From contig NZ_JACGFN010000001.1 of the NCBI RefSeq assembly GCF_016950255.1, positions 496,001-560,000 of the forward strand: 64,000 nt of DNA, given 5' to 3'. This DNA is from Pectobacterium brasiliense (GTDB taxonomy: Bacteria > Pseudomonadota > Gammaproteobacteria > Enterobacterales > Enterobacteriaceae). Position 1 is the stretch's first letter. Each line of letters opens with the position of its first letter. The translations under genes and the position numbers were made by a program. The notes beneath the pieces were generated by a model. It saw nothing but the letters and a program-made list of their open reading frames with translations, ran no database searches and had not been told where the DNA came from. Of this stretch, positions 1-5,077 are shown piece after piece.

Positions 1-828
1 CTCTTTAGAAACGTCTCGATCGAGCGAGATGCAATCCTTCCACAGAGAGCGTCCGGCAATCACGCCAGAGGCTCCATTTTTCAACGCGCTCTCTACCTGA
101 GGGAGAAACGTCGCGTGATCGACACCGGCAGACAGGACGGCCCAGGGAATGTCACCGCAGAGTGCCGTCACGCGAGCACAGGCTTCATCAGATCCCGGGT
201 AAGGGATTTTTAAGACCTTTGCGCCTTGGTCGATACAGGCCTGACAGCCTGCGGGAATGAGTTCGGGCAGGAGGCGGGTATAGGCTTCGCGAGATTCATT
301 TTCCAGAGGATAGGTCAGAAATTCAACGACAAGCAGTAAATCTTCCTGCGCAAAATCCTGAATCACGGTACGGAGTGTGGCAAGGTTCTGGGTATTGGCG
401 TCTGGTCTATCCGGGCGAAGGTAGATCATGATTTTTCCACCAGTGGCACCCCACTCACGCACTTTACGTGCCGTGACGCCTTCAACCATCGTGGAGATAC
501 GGTAGCCTTCTGGCGTTGTTTCCCACCCTGACGCGTCAAGCCCGATTAGCAGTCCCGTATCACGGGGCAGAATGTCTTCGTCTATCAGGCCTGGTATAGC
601 GCAGATCGGATCAACCAGCACACAACCTGCCTCCGCCGCCAGATAGCGAGTGATGTCATATTTTGTTTTGCCTAATGTTTCATTGGTAATTGCGGCCTGT
701 GCTTCTGATGTCGGTGCTAATAATGTTCGCATACCGCCACGTTGATCGCAGGCAATAACCATCATAGCGCCTGTCGCGTTACAAATTAATTGATATCCTC
801 GGTGTTCAGCTGTTGTCATGGTGTTCAT
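1..828 (-). CDS. LacD-like class I (tagatose-bisphosphate-type) aldolase, 3' end outside window
   Basis: The open frame runs off the left edge; 276 codons are visible. It resembles the class I aldolases of the LacD/YihT family, which split a ketose 1,6-bisphosphate (or 6-deoxy-6-sulfofructose-1-phosphate in YihT) into two trioses through a Schiff-base lysine. Seen: an N-terminal MVIACDQRGGMR segment near residues 23-34 (the family's 'A-D-Q-R' motif), a VVEFLTYP strand near 167-174, and VLKIPYPG near 205-212, where Lys207 is the likely Schiff-base residue. The start at 828 is preceded by GAGGG at good spacing; a second in-frame ATG lies three codons on. It is the last visible gene of a PTS operon headed by a PfkA-type kinase, so cleavage of a phosphorylated ketose is the probable role; the exact sugar is unknown. 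Confidence 0.85.
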   Translation of the reverse strand, partial: MNTMTTAEHRGYQLICNATGAMMVIACDQRGGMRTLLAPTSEAQAAITNETLGKTKYDITRYLAAEAGCVLVDPICAIPGLIDEDILPRDTGLLIGLDASGWETTPEGYRISTMVEGVTARKVREWGATGGKIMIYLRPDRPDANTQNLATLRTVIQDFAQEDLLLVVEFLTYPLENESREAYTRLLPELIPAGCQACIDQGAKVLKIPYPGSDEACARVTALCGDIPWAVLSAGVDHATFLPQVESALKNGASGVIAGRSLWKDCISLDRDVSKE

Positions 829-865
829 AATAATTACCCTCATAAAAAGTAATATAAATAAGCGA

Positions 866-1399
866 TTAATCCAGGTGTGTTTTGATCCATTGAATTAATT
901 CCTGATGATTAATTTCCTTATCCTGATCAACCGTGTAACACTTTCCAATACACATCGGTTTCGCCTGATGTGCGAGTGAAATTAATTCCGGGAGATACTC
1001 GTTGCCGGGATGGCCTTTTATTCTTTCATTAACTCTGGCTTGATATCGTGCCGCTACCCGATCGGATGAGATGGCATTCCATATTTCAAGCGTATGGTGG
1101 ATGCCACATGAAGCCAGGTAGTCCTGTAATACGGATCTCTCGCGAAATCCAAACCAGGCGTCGAGAATCAGAATGCTATTTTCAGGTGTCTGTCTAACAA
1201 TATTAAACATGGCCTGATAGGCGGCATATCCCAGTTTTCTGTTTAACGTTCTATCAATGGCATCGCAGAGCTGCATCATGAACGGCTCTTTTATTTCATC
1301 AAGGCTTAACCGTGGGAAATTCAATTCATCCGCAATAATACGTGCTACCGTGCTTTTCCCTGATGCGGGAATACCATTTACTAAAATAAGCTTTTTCAT
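866..1399 (-). CDS. Small P-loop kinase-like protein (AAA_33 / zeta-toxin-like fold)
   Basis: 177 residues with a textbook Walker A, GIPASGKST at residues 9-17, directly after a hydrophobic strand. The overall size and the N-terminal pattern fit the small ATP-dependent kinases (shikimate kinase, gluconate kinase, AAA_33). A DAWFGFRER segment in the middle could be Walker-B-like. Its ATG overlaps the stop of the PTS IIA gene (ATGA), so the two are translationally coupled and it belongs to the sugar operon. It may phosphorylate a sugar, sugar acid or pathway intermediate, but nothing in the sequence shows the substrate. A nucleotide-repair or regulatory role is also possible. Confidence 0.75.
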   Translation of the reverse strand: MKKLILVNGIPASGKSTVARIIADELNFPRLSLDEIKEPFMMQLCDAIDRTLNRKLGYAAYQAMFNIVRQTPENSILILDAWFGFRERSVLQDYLASCGIHHTLEIWNAISSDRVAARYQARVNERIKGHPGNEYLPELISLAHQAKPMCIGKCYTVDQDKEINHQELIQWIKTHLD

Positions 1400-1833
1400 A
1401 ACACCCCGACAATATCATCTGCCGTAGTGGCATTTCGAATACGAGAGAGCATGTCGTCCTTTTCCAATAGATTGATGATTGAGGCGATGCCTTCTGTAAT
1501 ATGCGCATCGCTGTTAATGCCGCCGAACATAATTAAAATATCCACCGGTTCACTGCCCTGAATAGAGAGCGGTGTCTGGAGCGTCAGTAAACTAAAACAA
1601 TTCTCCTGAACTCCACACTCAGGGCGCGCATGGGGAATAGCGATGCCTTCATCAAAAACATAATAAGGCCCGTACTCCTTCGTGCTTTCTATTACCGCGA
1701 TGGGATAGTGCTTTGTGATACATCCTGCGCGAATTAACGGTTGCGCGGCGCAATAAATAGCCTCTTCCCATGTCTCACATATTACGCCGAGTTGAATGCA
1801 ATCATGCTGCAAAAGGAAATTTTTTATGCTCAT
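1396..1833 (-). CDS. PTS sugar transporter subunit IIA (fructose/mannitol-type fold, UlaC-like)
   Basis: 145 residues, the usual size of a free-standing EIIA of the PTS_EIIA_2 family. The phosphohistidine motif is clear: IAIPHARP, with His68 as the residue that accepts phosphate from HPr. It passes phosphate to the IIB protein encoded further upstream. AGG of GAGG sits just before the ATG. It lies 6 bp after the 92-aa coiled-coil gene and overlaps the next kinase-like gene by four bases. Paired with a UlaA-type IIC, this suggests an ascorbate/galactitol-superfamily permease. Substrate not deducible. Confidence 0.9.
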   Translation of the reverse strand: MSIKNFLLQHDCIQLGVICETWEEAIYCAAQPLIRAGCITKHYPIAVIESTKEYGPYYVFDEGIAIPHARPECGVQENCFSLLTLQTPLSIQGSEPVDILIMFGGINSDAHITEGIASIINLLEKDDMLSRIRNATTADDIVGVL

Positions 1834-1839
1834 AAATCC

Positions 1840-2118
1840 TCATATATTTTTCCGAATGGTATTTCTGAGTTCATCTATCTGAATGAAAATACGATCAACG
1901 CGATCCCGATAGTCAGGATGCGCAGAAAATATCTGAATGGCCTGGTTGTATTTAATCATTAGCGTTTTTTGCGTTTCACTATGGGCCGGATCTTGAACTA
2001 AGCGAGACTCAAGCTCCGCTAATTCTTCCTCAATTTCCCTGATGCGATTGTCATCCTTATTATCGCGCGGGTCGGAAGCGGGGCCTGGGGATAAAAAACG
2101 TTTGAGTAGAGAAAACAT
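1840..2118 (-). CDS. Small charged coiled-coil protein of unknown function inside PTS operon
   Basis: 92 residues with a strong Shine-Dalgarno (AAGGAG, 5-nt spacing). After a short hydrophobic/proline N-terminus, residues about 20-45 (rich in Arg, Glu, Leu) and the C-terminal third look helical, with heptad-like spacing of Leu/Ile, so it is probably a small helical bundle or coiled coil. No signal peptide, membrane segment or catalytic motif is visible. It sits between the IIC and IIA genes, an unusual place for a non-PTS protein, and is tightly packed with both. I do not recognise the family. A chaperone, regulator or accessory of the PTS complex is only a guess from position. Confidence 0.7.
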   Translation of the reverse strand: MFSLLKRFLSPGPASDPRDNKDDNRIREIEEELAELESRLVQDPAHSETQKTLMIKYNQAIQIFSAHPDYRDRVDRIFIQIDELRNTIRKNI

Positions 2119-2162
2119 AGTGACTCCTTAAGCTATTTGCATCATGACGGCAGGCCAGTACG

Positions 2163-3500
2163 CTATTGCGATAGTTTACGATTCGCAAGAAAGGCAATGA
2201 AGGCAACGAACGCGACAAAGGCGGCGACAAATAACCAGTCCTGCTGGAAGGCATGTCCTAATATCAGGCCAGTGCCGATGACATCGGAATCACTGAAGGT
2301 GACGCCGGTAAATCCGAAGACTTCCAGTAATGGCACCAGAATAGCGGGCAATAGCGTAATAAAAAGACCATGAACCACGCCGCCGATGACTGCGCCACGC
2401 CGTCCTCCCATGGCATTACCGAAAATACCGGCTGTGCCGCCCGCAAAGAAGTTGGTCAATAAACCTGGCAAAATCATTGCTAGCCCAAACATCGGGAAGA
2501 TCAGCATCCCGAGAATAGAACCGACGGTGGTGGCGAGGAACCCGACAATGACGGCGTTGGGCGCATAGGGGAAGAGCACCGGACAATCCAACGCGGGTTT
2601 GGCGTTAGGAACCAGCCGCATGGCGATACCTCGAAATGCGGGAACCAGCTCATTAAGCAGCAGACGGACACCGCTGTAGAGAACGAAAACGCCTGCGACA
2701 AACTGCATGGACTGCATGAAGGAATACATCAGATAATTGACGCCGTTGGCGTACTGCGCGATGTAGGCCGGTCCCGCCGCCACGGCAGGGATGAGGTACA
2801 TCGGCACCATGACGACGGCCATCGACAGGTAGGTATCCTGTAAGAATTTGAAATTATCAGGCAGCGTTAAATCTTCCGTGGATTTGGAGTTTTTACCGAC
2901 TAACCGCGCGACGGCGGCCTGCACCAGATAGCCGATGGTACAAAAATGCCCGAGTGCAACATCATCGGAATTCGTGATTTTGCGGACAATCGGCTGTGCT
3001 AGTGCAGGCATCAGCACGGCCATAATGCCGCCAAATATGCCTCCGGTTAAGATCAGTGTCGCGCCGGTCAAGCCCGATTTATAGCCGATCACGGTGCCGA
3101 TAGTTGCCATCCACAGCAGTGCCTGTCCCGTTAGGAAGATATATTTAAAGGAAGTAATGCGTGCAATAAGGATGTTGACGGCAAAGATCACCATGAGCGT
3201 CAACGCGACTTCTGACCCAAGTTCACGGTTTGCCAACCCGGCGATGGCGGCGACATCGGTGATGTAGCCTTTCATGCCAAAGCCTTGGGTAAATATGTTG
3301 TTCAAATAAGTCAGGGTATCAACGATGATGTTAATCCCAGCCATCATGATGAGGAAACCCAGCAGCGTCTTGAAGGTTCCCTCTGCAATTTTTCCTACTG
3401 ATTTCTTCTGCAGAATCAACCCGATCATGGCGATCAGTGCGATTAATATGGATGCCTGGCCTAATAAATCTTTCACAATGAAATTGATAACGGTGTTCAT
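2163..3500 (-). CDS. PTS sugar permease subunit IIC, UlaA/SgaT family
   Basis: 445 residues, almost wholly hydrophobic with about ten or more predicted membrane spans. Sequence character (MAGINIIVDTLTYLNNIF near residue 52 onward, the glycine-rich TGGIFGGIMAVLMPALAQP stretch, LFPYAPNAVIVGF near 305-317) matches the ascorbate-type EIIC family (SgaT/UlaA). It carries the sugar across the inner membrane while IIB phosphorylates it. GAGGTG precedes the ATG. It follows the IIB gene by 13 bp. Ascorbate itself is doubtful as the substrate because the downstream enzymes are a PfkA-type kinase and a bisphosphate aldolase, not the ula enzymes. Confidence 0.9.
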   Translation of the reverse strand: MNTVINFIVKDLLGQASILIALIAMIGLILQKKSVGKIAEGTFKTLLGFLIMMAGINIIVDTLTYLNNIFTQGFGMKGYITDVAAIAGLANRELGSEVALTLMVIFAVNILIARITSFKYIFLTGQALLWMATIGTVIGYKSGLTGATLILTGGIFGGIMAVLMPALAQPIVRKITNSDDVALGHFCTIGYLVQAAVARLVGKNSKSTEDLTLPDNFKFLQDTYLSMAVVMVPMYLIPAVAAGPAYIAQYANGVNYLMYSFMQSMQFVAGVFVLYSGVRLLLNELVPAFRGIAMRLVPNAKPALDCPVLFPYAPNAVIVGFLATTVGSILGMLIFPMFGLAMILPGLLTNFFAGGTAGIFGNAMGGRRGAVIGGVVHGLFITLLPAILVPLLEVFGFTGVTFSDSDVIGTGLILGHAFQQDWLFVAAFVAFVAFIAFLANRKLSQ

Positions 3501-3513
3501 TTTTCACCTCATG

Positions 3514-3807
3514 CTATTGATGAGCCTGGATATAAGTTAAAATTTTTTCTTCTATTTCATCTTTATCAGTCAATTTATTAAGAATGATGACTCTTTTTTT
3601 CTCATCTTCACTGGCATCGCTATTCAGGATGTCAGCAAATATCTTCTGGGTTAGAATAACGTCATAATTAAAGGCAGAGGCCTCTGAAATCGTGGTGTGA
3701 TTTATCTCTGCATCAATACCTAATTTTTTTAGTACGGATTTGGCTGTCATTTCGATAGCGAAACTGGAACCTAATCCACAACCGCAAACGCAAAGTACTT
3801 TCAACAT
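3514..3807 (-). CDS. PTS sugar transporter subunit IIB (lactose/ascorbate/galactitol type)
   Basis: 97 residues from the chosen start, which fits the roughly 95-100 aa of UlaB/GatB-type IIB proteins. The N-terminus MLKVLCVCGCGLGSSFA carries the phosphocysteine loop C-G-x-G-x-G-S-S; Cys8 or Cys10 is the phosphorylated residue. A longer frame reaches 3870 but overlaps the kinase gene; the ATG at 3807 has GAGG eight bases upstream and gives a protein that begins directly with the first beta strand. It takes phosphate from the IIA encoded downstream and gives it to sugar bound in the IIC. Confidence 0.9.
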   Translation of the reverse strand: MLKVLCVCGCGLGSSFAIEMTAKSVLKKLGIDAEINHTTISEASAFNYDVILTQKIFADILNSDASEDEKKRVIILNKLTDKDEIEEKILTYIQAHQ

Positions 3808-3817
3808 AATCATGGCC

Positions 3818-4798
3818 TCATATAAGGTGATGGGCTTTCGCGAGCTTATAAAAATGACTTTCGACATCAACCAAGCGTCGTTCGGAATCCTCCAGGTCGA
3901 TAGGAATAGCCTTGTTGTTATTATTGATAATGATAATTTTATTGGTTAGTCCGGCGTTAATACACCGAACCACTTCTTCTGCTAATAGAGTGCCCTGAAT
4001 AATTTCTTCCCCGGTGGGCGCGCCATTTCGTAAACCATATCCCAAAATGGTTTTTCGGATACGGATGCCAATCTTATGCTCTAGTTTCTTGATAATGGTA
4101 TCGATAGCGCCCTGAAAACCAGGCGTATACTCATGGGTATAGCCTTCAGAGCATAAAATTATCACGCTGTTTTGTTCTGCGATTTTATCCCGAATACATT
4201 GTGATAATTTATCAATATCCCACGGTGCTTCTGGAATGAGTGCGATGTCTGCGTTGCTCTTTAATGCCGCCTGCAAGGTTAATTCGCCACAATAACCACC
4301 GAGTAATTCAATCATGAACACCCGGCCTTGTAATCCCCGGCCTGTATTTCGCAATTTTTCTACTTCGCTCATTACCTGTTCGCAGGCGGTAGAAAAACCG
4401 ATCGTATAGCTATTCCCTGAAATGTCATTATCAATCGTCATGCCGACGCCATAGCAATGAACGCCATAGTGACTGAGTTTTTTTAGAAATTGGAATGAGC
4501 CATCTCCGCCAGCCATAATGAGCGCGTCGAGTTTTTGTTTTTGAATGTTTTTGACGATTTGCTCATAGTCTGTTTTTCTACATTTTCCGGTTTTTCTCCC
4601 TGAAGTAATCAGGGGCATTGCCGAGAGGGAATAATCCACTAAATCGCGTCGAGTGAGGACTTTACAGCAGTTATCGATAAGGCCATTAATTCCACCATCG
4701 AAAATGACGATGTCAGAGGCAGTCATTCTATTCACCTGAAAGATGAAGTTATTTATTCCGCTAACGTCGCCACCGCTAATGACTAATCCAATTTTCAT
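3818..4798 (-). CDS. PfkA-family sugar-phosphate kinase, first gene of the PTS operon
   Basis: 326 residues, near the 320 of bacterial ATP-type 6-phosphofructokinases. Seen: ISGGDVSGINN at the N-terminus (family usually GGDAPGMN), AGGDGS (the Gly typical of ATP rather than pyrophosphate users), TIDNDISG with both catalytic Asp, an Arg before the second substrate loop, and RKTILGYGLRNG at the site of the C-terminal Arg motif. Two substitutions stand out: Met instead of Gly just before TIDND, and Gly-Gly where the family has Gly-Arg (MGR motif). The start at 4798 has GAGGG five bases away; the longer frame to 4882 lacks family similarity. It probably makes a ketose-1,6-bisphosphate for the LacD-like aldolase; substrate may not be fructose-6-phosphate. 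Confidence 0.88.
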   Translation of the reverse strand: MKIGLVISGGDVSGINNFIFQVNRMTASDIVIFDGGINGLIDNCCKVLTRRDLVDYSLSAMPLITSGRKTGKCRKTDYEQIVKNIQKQKLDALIMAGGDGSFQFLKKLSHYGVHCYGVGMTIDNDISGNSYTIGFSTACEQVMSEVEKLRNTGRGLQGRVFMIELLGGYCGELTLQAALKSNADIALIPEAPWDIDKLSQCIRDKIAEQNSVIILCSEGYTHEYTPGFQGAIDTIIKKLEHKIGIRIRKTILGYGLRNGAPTGEEIIQGTLLAEEVVRCINAGLTNKIIIINNNNKAIPIDLEDSERRLVDVESHFYKLAKAHHLI

Positions 4799-4939
4799 CG
4801 TCGCCCTCTGGAAATATGAATAACCACCGTGTGAACACAATGTTATTAAACTGATAAGGCGTTTTTTTGATGAATGTCGCAAATTTGTATTTAATTACGG
4901 GACTGAGTGTCTTGACAGTGATGTTGGTTATTCGATTGT

Positions 4940-4955
4940 TGTGATTATTATCACG
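4940..4955. promoter_or_regulatory. CRP-cAMP binding site, near-consensus
   Basis: TGTGATTATTATCACG matches TGTGA-N6-TCACA at nine of ten conserved positions. It lies 142 bp upstream of the start codon of the PTS-linked kinase, which suits a class I or upstream activator position and points to catabolite repression of the sugar operon. Confidence 0.75.
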
Positions 4956-5033
4956 ATTTAAAAATAAGCAATATAACTAACTTATTAATTAACCTGGATT
5001 TTAACATTTTCCCCTTTTTTACTTTTATTTAGC

Positions 5034-5047
5034 TTTTTAGCTAAAAA
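5034..5047. promoter_or_regulatory. 14-bp perfect palindrome, possible repressor operator
   Basis: TTTTTAGCTAAAAA is a perfect inverted repeat between the two CRP sites; TTAGCT is also repeated just to its left. No regulator gene is visible in the window, so the cognate protein, if any, would lie elsewhere, perhaps left of position 1. AT-rich palindromes can arise by chance. Confidence 0.4.
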
Positions 5048-5061
5048 ACGAATACGTATTT

Positions 5062-5077
5062 TGTGAATGATTTCACA
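5062..5077. promoter_or_regulatory. CRP-cAMP binding site, perfect consensus
   Basis: TGTGAATGATTTCACA matches both half-sites TGTGA and TCACA exactly with 6-bp spacing. It is 205 bp upstream of dadA and 264 bp upstream of the PTS operon. E. coli dadAX is known to respond to CRP, so this may serve dadA, the PTS operon or both. Confidence 0.8.

Follow-up and report, generated by a model that had tools for sequence, protein, structure and literature searches.

A PTS operon of Pectobacterium brasiliense that probably encodes a ketose-bisphosphate pathway, with D-mannoheptulose as the likeliest sugar

Which sugar is taken up, and how is it broken down, by the PTS operon at the left edge of a 64,000-nucleotide stretch of Pectobacterium brasiliense DNA (this whole stretch is called the window here)? 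A preliminary description had reported seven closely packed genes on one strand, and reading of the window ORFs recovered all seven, each on the minus strand and arranged as kinase, IIB, IIC, 92-aa protein, IIA, P-loop kinase, and aldolase. The same order was found in all 25 loci of the window type, the window's own counted, and this conserved arrangement is far above chance. One of these loci (L083) had its PfkA-type gene read as two pieces. Left of the aldolase we observed genes which, from their sequences, we take to be SpoVR/YcgB-like, fadR, and nhaB, and the gene right of the PfkA-type kinase is presumably dadA. An isomerase had been reported as lacking, and it was to be sought together with a regulator left of the window; neither an isomerase nor a sugar-type regulator was seen among the flanking genes read on both sides. 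The database records inspected label such genes as ‘6-phosphofructokinase’, ‘ATPase AAA’ or ‘AAA family ATPase’, and ‘tagatose-bisphosphate aldolase’. Judged from its genes, the operon probably encodes a PTS-fed ketose-bisphosphate pathway, for which D-mannoheptulose is the likeliest sugar.

The PTS components were encoded on the minus strand at 3514..3807 (IIB, 97 aa, with a CGCGLGSS cysteine loop; PF02302, PTS_IIB, 46.9 bits), 2163..3500 (IIC of the UlaA superfamily, 445 aa; PF03611, EIIC-GAT, 406 bits), and 1396..1833 (IIA of the fructose/mannitol/Ula type, 145 aa, with an IPHARPE histidine; PF00359, EIIA_2, 96.9 bits). All three share their superfamilies with the UlaABC ascorbate PTS, and IIC passed the NCBIfam ascorbate IIC equivalog PRK09410.1-1 (479.9 bits, cut-off 380), which speaks for an operon of the L-ascorbate (ula) type. 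However, IIC fitted a separate IIC family, PRK12997.1-3, more strongly (820.8 bits, cut-off 657), and its match to the solved UlaA 4rp8 was distant (151.7 bits). IIB (25 vs 138 bits, UlaB) and IIA (102.3 vs 187 bits) stayed below their ascorbate equivalog cut-offs. The ascorbate-6-phosphate enzymes (lactonase, decarboxylase, epimerases) were absent among the operon's genes, and no UlaG, UlaD, UlaE, or UlaF gene was seen in the operon or among its neighbours. An ascorbate operon is thus highly improbable, as the earlier remark on a misfit to the ula pathway had implied. With a ketose as substrate, EIIA, EIIB, and EIIC would bring the sugar in as its terminal phosphate.

The aldolase gene (1..843, minus strand) is cut by the window edge; the full gene (L002:11929-12843, 304 aa) extends 72 bases left of the window. 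Its product belongs to the class I LacD/YihT superfamily of ketose-phosphate aldolases (PF01791, DeoC/LacD, 56.3 bits, cut-off 23.8), and it could be aligned with YihT 7ag7 at the DQR, Lys, Glu, Lys, S-x-G, and AGR positions. The choice of the lysine that forms the Schiff base is our assumption. By the TIGR01232 equivalog the enzyme is not LacD (50.5 vs 432.2 bits). Family and conserved residues point to a Schiff-base mechanism, in which the C3-C4 bond would be split to give DHAP and an aldose phosphate.

Four architectures were distinguished across the loci. Type A (25 loci, PFK and class I aldolase) is the window-type operon. Type B (21 loci, IIC and class II aldolase) has a class II ketose-bisphosphate aldolase replacing the class I enzyme, whose gene was absent from 21/21 loci, and the remaining operon is homologous. 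Type C (9 loci, IIC and SorC) has an added SorC-like regulator and mostly misses the PfkA-type kinase. In type D (19 loci, ROK, P-loop kinase, and class I aldolase), an ABC importer and a ROK sugar kinase take the place of the PTS. Because the types were defined by the genes in brackets, counts of those genes are true by definition, and the other counts are results. Two loci were left out (L137, the same record as L080, and L082, whose contig is as long as that of L046), and two were untyped (L044, cut by a contig end, and L054, with a distant PFK only). Wide stretches were read for 30 of the 37 P-loop kinase matches; four of the others have contigs of the same length as typed records, and G151, G188, and G019 were seen as 3.5 kb stretches only and showed type A, B, and B patterns, respectively. 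Plasmid records with matches numbered 30 in one search and 26 in another, and seven of them were inspected.

The core common to the four architectures is a P-loop kinase and a ketose-bisphosphate-type aldolase, class I in the 53 A, C, and D loci and class II in the 21 B loci, while PTS and ABC importer plus ROK kinase substitute for one another. IIC identity was 77–87% between A and B and 66–71% between A and C. Types C and D shared 44–72% identity in the regulator, 59–76% in the aldolase, and 38–65% in the P-loop kinase; for A and D the values were 57–76% (aldolase) and 35–47% (P-loop kinase). A ROK kinase or a type D binding protein was found in 0/25 type A loci, within the stretch retrieved round each locus. 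The logic already put forward for the window, uptake of a ketose by the PTS, formation of a bisphosphate, and aldol cleavage, with no isomerase step, is best supported by type B, in which an aldolase of the other class sits in an otherwise homologous operon; we regard this logic as likely. All four architectures would then follow one plan, with import and first phosphorylation, second phosphorylation, and aldol cleavage.

The candidate for the second phosphorylation named earlier was the PfkA-fold sugar-phosphate kinase (3818..4798, minus strand, 326 aa; PF00365, PFK, 208.5 bits). It has the fold, the ATP site, and the 6-phosphate arginines in common with PfkA 6-phosphofructokinase, and GGDGS and TIDND were also retained in an alignment of 12 type A and B rows. 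It differs from PfkA in the same rows by G124M, M169L, R171G, and H249Y (F in one), residue numbers that follow what we take to be the E. coli PfkA numbering. Its score was below the TIGR02482 (PFKA_ATP) equivalog cut-off (168.3 vs 371.35 bits), by which it is not a PfkA 6-phosphofructokinase, and its identity with the host's own PfkA was 32%. The kinase keeps the 6-phosphate arginines, but its sugar pocket is changed.

The P-loop kinase (866..1399, minus strand, 177 aa; AAA_33, 32.5 bits) is encoded by a gene overlapping the IIA gene by 4 bases. Its fold matches included gluconate kinase and 6-phosphofructo-2-kinase, by shared fold only. It was found in all four architectures; most loci, among them those of types B, C, and D, were retrieved with it as query, so its constancy is partly built in. 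All 20 complete loci retrieved via the PfkA-type kinase also had it. The claimed second phosphorylation step is supported, but the assignment of this step to the PfkA-type kinase is not settled, as that gene was absent from 8/9 type C and 19/19 type D loci, where the P-loop kinase, to which the preliminary description gave no role, is kept. Either the P-loop kinase or the diverged PfkA-type kinase would place the second phosphate on C1 and so form the bisphosphate, unless the two act on different sugars. Types A and B hold two apparently intact second kinases, which counts against our favoured explanation.

In another reading, the P-loop kinase acts on an aldolase product that carries no phosphate (glyceraldehyde, DHA, or a tetrose), and the bisphosphate of A and B comes from the PfkA-type kinase. 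The presence of both kinases in the 46 A and B loci agrees with this, as do the housekeeping PfkA in 9/9 type C genomes and a PF00365 protein elsewhere in 10/14 type D genomes. However, the other 4/14 type D genomes showed no PF00365 match, and the P-loop kinase was fused behind the ROK sugar kinase in 15/19 type D loci and adjoined it in the other 4 (14 fusions were detected by script, and L124 was added as a 523-aa frame holding both, with its sole stop at the end). We consider a product kinase improbable.

Two further parts of the locus were analysed. The 92-aa protein (1840..2118, minus strand) was predicted as a three-helix bundle (AF2 pLDDT 82.9); no Pfam or NCBIfam family matched it, and no convincing fold relative of its model was found. 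Its gene was present in every type A (25/25) and every type B (21/21) locus. The pathway favoured here leaves this protein without explanation, which counts against it. The upstream region (4940..5077) holds two CRP-like palindromes, at 4940-4954 and 5062-5077. In the whole window, the pattern TGTGA-N6-TCAC matched 5 times, at 3 places, where 0.52 matches would be expected. The distal site was present in 10/10 Pectobacterium-group upstream regions, and a similar site in 4/4 others tested; this conservation suggests catabolite control of the operon.

For the bisphosphate pathway itself, three answers on the sugar were weighed. D-Mannoheptulose, a sugar of plants whose configuration at C3-C5 is that of tagatose, is tentatively placed first as the main sugar of the operon. 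A type D binding protein matched PDB 5dkv (547 bits), which we take to be Avi_5339 with tagatose as its crystal ligand. A hypothetical mannoheptulose pathway was proposed in 2017 for Rhodobacteriaceae bin08 in a type D-like locus (PMC5507952, as far as its available part goes), where a ROK kinase, a second kinase, and a COG3684 aldolase convert mannoheptulose to DHAP and erythrose-4-phosphate. According to the same part, the proposal was based on a binding protein with 83% similarity to Avi_5339, and the binding observation cited there was itself unpublished.

With D-tagatose, the PTS would deliver tagatose-6-phosphate, and tagatose-1,6-bisphosphate would be cleaved to DHAP and glyceraldehyde-3-phosphate. 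The LacD/YihT membership of the aldolase and the retained 6-phosphate pocket of the PfkA-type kinase agree with this, and GatZ-like and tagatose-kinase-like genes were each found near 6/19 type D loci, counts that hinge on stretches of 15–31 kb and score thresholds. The same neighbours also argue against it: where they occur, type D loci would have a tagatose route already, which ROK kinase, P-loop kinase, and aldolase would only duplicate. We consider tagatose unlikely. We hold the same doubt about another ketose (sedoheptulose, psicose, sorbose, a branched or an amino ketose) handled by the same logic. LacD-type aldolases are loosely stereospecific, and unusual products are hinted at by PdxJ-like genes, seen near 4/19 type D loci, and by HAD phosphatase genes, seen near 13/25 type A and 2/19 type D loci; these counts hinge on the same stretch lengths and thresholds, and a HAD gene annotated in L135 falls below the threshold used. 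Against both, the sole substrate hint found in print, in the available part of PMC5507952, names mannoheptulose.

With mannoheptulose, the full scheme, which we offer with more reserve than the choice of sugar, is that the UlaA-type PTS delivers mannoheptulose-7-phosphate, the PfkA paralogue, a new P-loop kinase family, or both form mannoheptulose-1,7-bisphosphate, and the class I aldolase (class II in B) releases DHAP and erythrose-4-phosphate. The ‘trioses’ named as products in the preliminary description would probably be wrong for a heptulose. Its ‘undescribed pathway’ was too strong, because PMC5507952, in its available part, had already proposed the scheme for the ABC/ROK relative. The word applies at most to the PTS form, on which no publication was met in the literature searches, one of which covered the best 20 of 474 matches. 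If true, our reading describes an enterobacterial, PTS-fed version of a pathway that in other bacteria relies on an ABC importer and a fused ROK–P-loop kinase. It proposes roles and a step order for genes with misleading automatic names, and narrows a vague candidate to a few sugars and enzyme assays. To our knowledge, heptulose breakdown in bacteria has hardly been studied.

Among known systems, the LacABCD route has the same sequence of 6-phosphate, 1,6-bisphosphate, and class I aldolase of one superfamily. However, its LacAB isomerase and PfkB-type LacC were not found in the operon or among the neighbours read on both sides, the kinases being PF00365 and AAA_33 proteins, and with the aldolase far under the LacD cut-off the claimed misfit to the lac pathway stands. 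Judged by the general gene content of the tag and gat pathways, the misfit to them presumably holds too. The YihT sulfofructose-phosphate aldolase shares superfamily and catalytic positions with the window aldolase (about 59 bits), but its system differs in neighbour genes and kinase type, and no sulfosugar genes were seen beside the window aldolase. Evolved D-tagatose use in E. coli (PMC10101011, available part) likewise combines PTS uptake of a rare ketose, a sugar-phosphate kinase, and an aldolase, but the proteins are others than those of the window, since laboratory mutants use their fructose PTS and 1-phosphofructokinase. The PMC5507952 locus has an ABC transporter and a ROK kinase, whereas the window operon has a PTS instead of an ABC importer with a mannoheptulose-type binding protein and a ROK kinase; the available part of that paper does not mention the PfkA-type kinase or the 92-aa protein. 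Its gene set is that of type D, and by gene set only is this locus equated with type D; the type D P-loop kinase and aldolase are homologues of the window-type enzymes. As proposed for the window operon, two phosphorylations would be followed there by a COG3684 (tagatose-bisphosphate type) aldolase, which ties the PTS form to this alphaproteobacterial proposal, itself hypothetical.

Seven tightly packed minus-strand genes filled the first 4.8 kb of the window: PfkA-fold kinase (3818-4798), PTS IIB, UlaA-superfamily IIC, a 92-aa protein (1840-2118), PTS IIA, P-loop kinase (866-1399) and aldolase. This order, given in the preliminary description, was borne out by the reading frames and, for six of the seven genes, by Pfam; the 92-aa protein had no family in Pfam or NCBIfam. 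The P-loop kinase (177 aa) overlapped the IIA gene by four bases. The LacD/YihT-superfamily aldolase gene is truncated by the window edge and was completed from the genome at 304 aa. The operon is flanked by what we take to be dadA and a SpoVR/ycgB-like gene, and the adjoining genes inspected included no isomerase or sugar-type regulator. The nearest named relatives of the PfkA-type kinase were from P. brasiliense (98%), P. peruviense (97%) and P. carotovorum (97%). One genome of the same genus (G384) gave no P-loop kinase match in the search of order genomes, so carriage of the operon varies within the genus.

Searches for the P-loop kinase matched 37 of 198 family genomes, 12 of 295 order genomes, 11 of 398 phylum genomes and, around two matches, 11 of 101 and 2 of 100 genomes; these sets overlap. 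A search for the PfkA-type kinase in a single species-level genome collection gave 22 loci, and both forms of the P-loop kinase were run against plasmid records. After removal of duplicates, 74 loci fell into four architectures. Type A (25 loci, including the window's own) has the window's gene order, and type B (21 loci) runs kinase-IIB-IIC-class II aldolase-92 aa-IIA-P-loop kinase. In type C (9 loci) a divergent SorC-type regulator precedes aldolase-P-loop kinase-IIA-IIB-IIC-101-aa protein. All 19 type D loci carry aldolase, ROK kinase and P-loop kinase, with a SorC-type regulator and an RbsB-like binding protein in 18 each; the named members are alphaproteobacteria throughout (Agrobacterium rubi, A. 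salinitolerans, Rhizobium sp. SL42 and K1/93, Aureimonas sp. AU20). ROK and P-loop kinase form a single reading frame in 15 type D loci and are adjacent in different frames in four (L127-L130). At L130 one stop separates the two matches, which could mean two genes or a frameshift.

Several loci showed further peculiarities. A HAD phosphatase gene (6-phosphogluconate-phosphatase-like) followed the aldolase in 13 of 25 type A loci (L041-L043, L045-L048, L051-L053, L079, L080, L083) and, among the type A loci compared, was absent from the Pectobacterium group, L049 and L081. The PfkA-type kinase gene of L083 was read as two pieces. The Klebsiella pneumoniae record CP125156.1 (L133; 5.37 Mb, labelled plasmid) contains a type B operon; its kinase and class II aldolase each matched in two pieces and neither is in the listed gene table. 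Genes for a Gfo/Idh oxidoreductase, a sugar isomerase/epimerase, an alpha/beta hydrolase and a ribulose-phosphate-epimerase-like protein, partly also a second ROK, recurred beside type D loci (Gfo/Idh-type set: L135:19902-24331, L136:2708-7118, L138:5388-8804, L120, L123, L126).

Upstream, the 484 bases that separate the operon from the dadA-like gene contain two CRP-like palindromes (TGTGA-N6-TCAC; 5062-5077 and 4940-4954), spaced by about 120 bases. With palindromes counted on both strands, the pattern had five matches at three places in 64 kb, against 0.52 expected. The test covered 14 type A loci out of 25: the ten from the Pectobacterium group, Samsonia among them, all had the distal site upstream, and the four others all had a similar site at about -290. 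At the proximal site only L039 and L049 complied with a stricter pattern on the operon strand. The conserved CRP-like site suggests catabolite control. A near-palindrome, ATAACATTGTGTTCACACGGTGGTTAT (4820-4846, minus strand), just ahead of the first gene, was largely conserved in the alignment and might serve as operator for a regulator whose gene lies elsewhere.

Types B, C and D and some of the type A loci were retrieved with the P-loop kinase as query, so finding it there is a consequence of the search. It was also found in all 20 complete type A loci retrieved through the PfkA-type kinase, and every typed locus retrieved through the P-loop kinase had an aldolase gene of class I or II. The type B aldolase is class II, unrelated to the class I enzyme of A, C and D, and differently placed in the operon. 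In L056, a type B representative, it scored 262.5 bits for TIGR00167 ketose-bisphosphate aldolase (cut-off 215.6) and 292.9 bits for TIGR01859, under the cut-off of 343. Because unrelated classes replace each other, the exchange is best explained by one common reaction, ketose bisphosphate cleavage. Likewise the PTS interchanges with an ABC importer plus ROK kinase, so both should yield a terminally phosphorylated ketose. A second phosphorylation would follow, and the aldolase of either class would split the bisphosphate. We consider this logic of two phosphorylations and aldol cleavage probable. The interpretation in the preliminary description was thus supported in part: its general scheme gains from the aldolase swap, and the PfkA-type kinase is one of two candidates for the second phosphorylation.

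The PfkA-type kinase, not a query for types C and D, was missing from 8 of 9 type C and all 19 type D loci. The exception (L069:7988-8983) has GGGGS for GGDGS, thereby losing the GGDG aspartate, and its product may be inactive as a kinase. All nine type C genomes have PfkA; a PF00365 match was absent in 4 of 14 type D genomes, and the other ten have one (frames 398-463 aa). In the absence of any PfkA-type kinase, the second phosphorylation would most plausibly fall to the P-loop kinase. Across 72 of 74 P-loop kinases (two omitted for stops or length), 33 columns were at least 98% identical, including N8, G9, G14-K15-S16, D34, K37, R50, N53, R54, D80-W82, R118, R122, R126 and H130, which points to an active enzyme whose substrate is conserved. 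Compared with the host's own PfkA, the PfkA-type kinase retained G11, R72, D103, T125, D127 and D129, which serve catalysis and ATP/Mg binding, and the 6-phosphate arginines R162, R243 and R252. The 12 rows aligned, out of 46 type A and B loci, carried G124M, M169L, R171G and H249Y, with F at the last position in L079. Residue numbers follow the E. coli enzyme and leave out the initiator Met, with which each would be one higher. These residues would fit a terminal-phosphate ketose other than fructose-6-phosphate; E. coli PfkA also takes sedoheptulose-7-phosphate. For types A and B, our guess is that one kinase serves a hexulose and the other a heptulose phosphate.

A type D binding protein (L102) matched PDB 5dkv with 547 bits over 302 residues; this entry is presumably Avi_5339 with tagatose in the crystal. 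Mannoheptulose and tagatose have the same configuration at C3-C5, so both remain candidates. GatZ-like and tagatose-kinase-like genes each occurred in the neighbourhood of six of the 19 type D loci, which fits an importer taking both sugars. Tagatose, the main rival, is rather unlikely as the sugar. A 2017 comparative genomics paper (PMC5507952) describes a locus with ABC transporter, COG3684 aldolase, ROK kinase and COG0529 kinase, which by gene set would be type D. Its binding protein is 83% similar to A. vitis Avi_5339, reported there, as an unpublished observation, to bind mannoheptulose, and the proposed scheme runs from mannoheptulose-7-P through the 1,7-bisphosphate to DHAP and erythrose-4-P (PMC5507952). 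Four of the 19 type D loci (L124, L125, L134, L135) have a PdxJ-like (pyridoxine 5'-phosphate synthase) gene close to the SorC regulator or to the ABC genes. Erythrose-4-phosphate is a precursor in the PdxJ vitamin B6 route, and the gene is at most a hint at that product. Mannoheptulose is plausible as the sugar, held with a little less than even confidence.

Among known systems, the lac tagatose-6-P operon was rejected: LacAB and LacC are absent, and the aldolase scored 50.5 bits against the LacD cut-off of 432.2. The ascorbate operon was rejected as well; of the three PTS components only the IIC reached the cut-off of an ascorbate equivalog. The lack of fit to lac and ula put forward earlier was thereby supported. 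The operon would work like other bisphosphate-aldolase pathways. Among the matches listed from open-licence PMC literature, no paper on the PTS form was found, and the earlier claim of an undescribed pathway would stand at most for that form; the scheme itself was already proposed for the ABC/ROK locus (PMC5507952). The operon resembles a PTS form of that mannoheptulose route, and so looks like a variant of a pathway already proposed and itself hypothetical.
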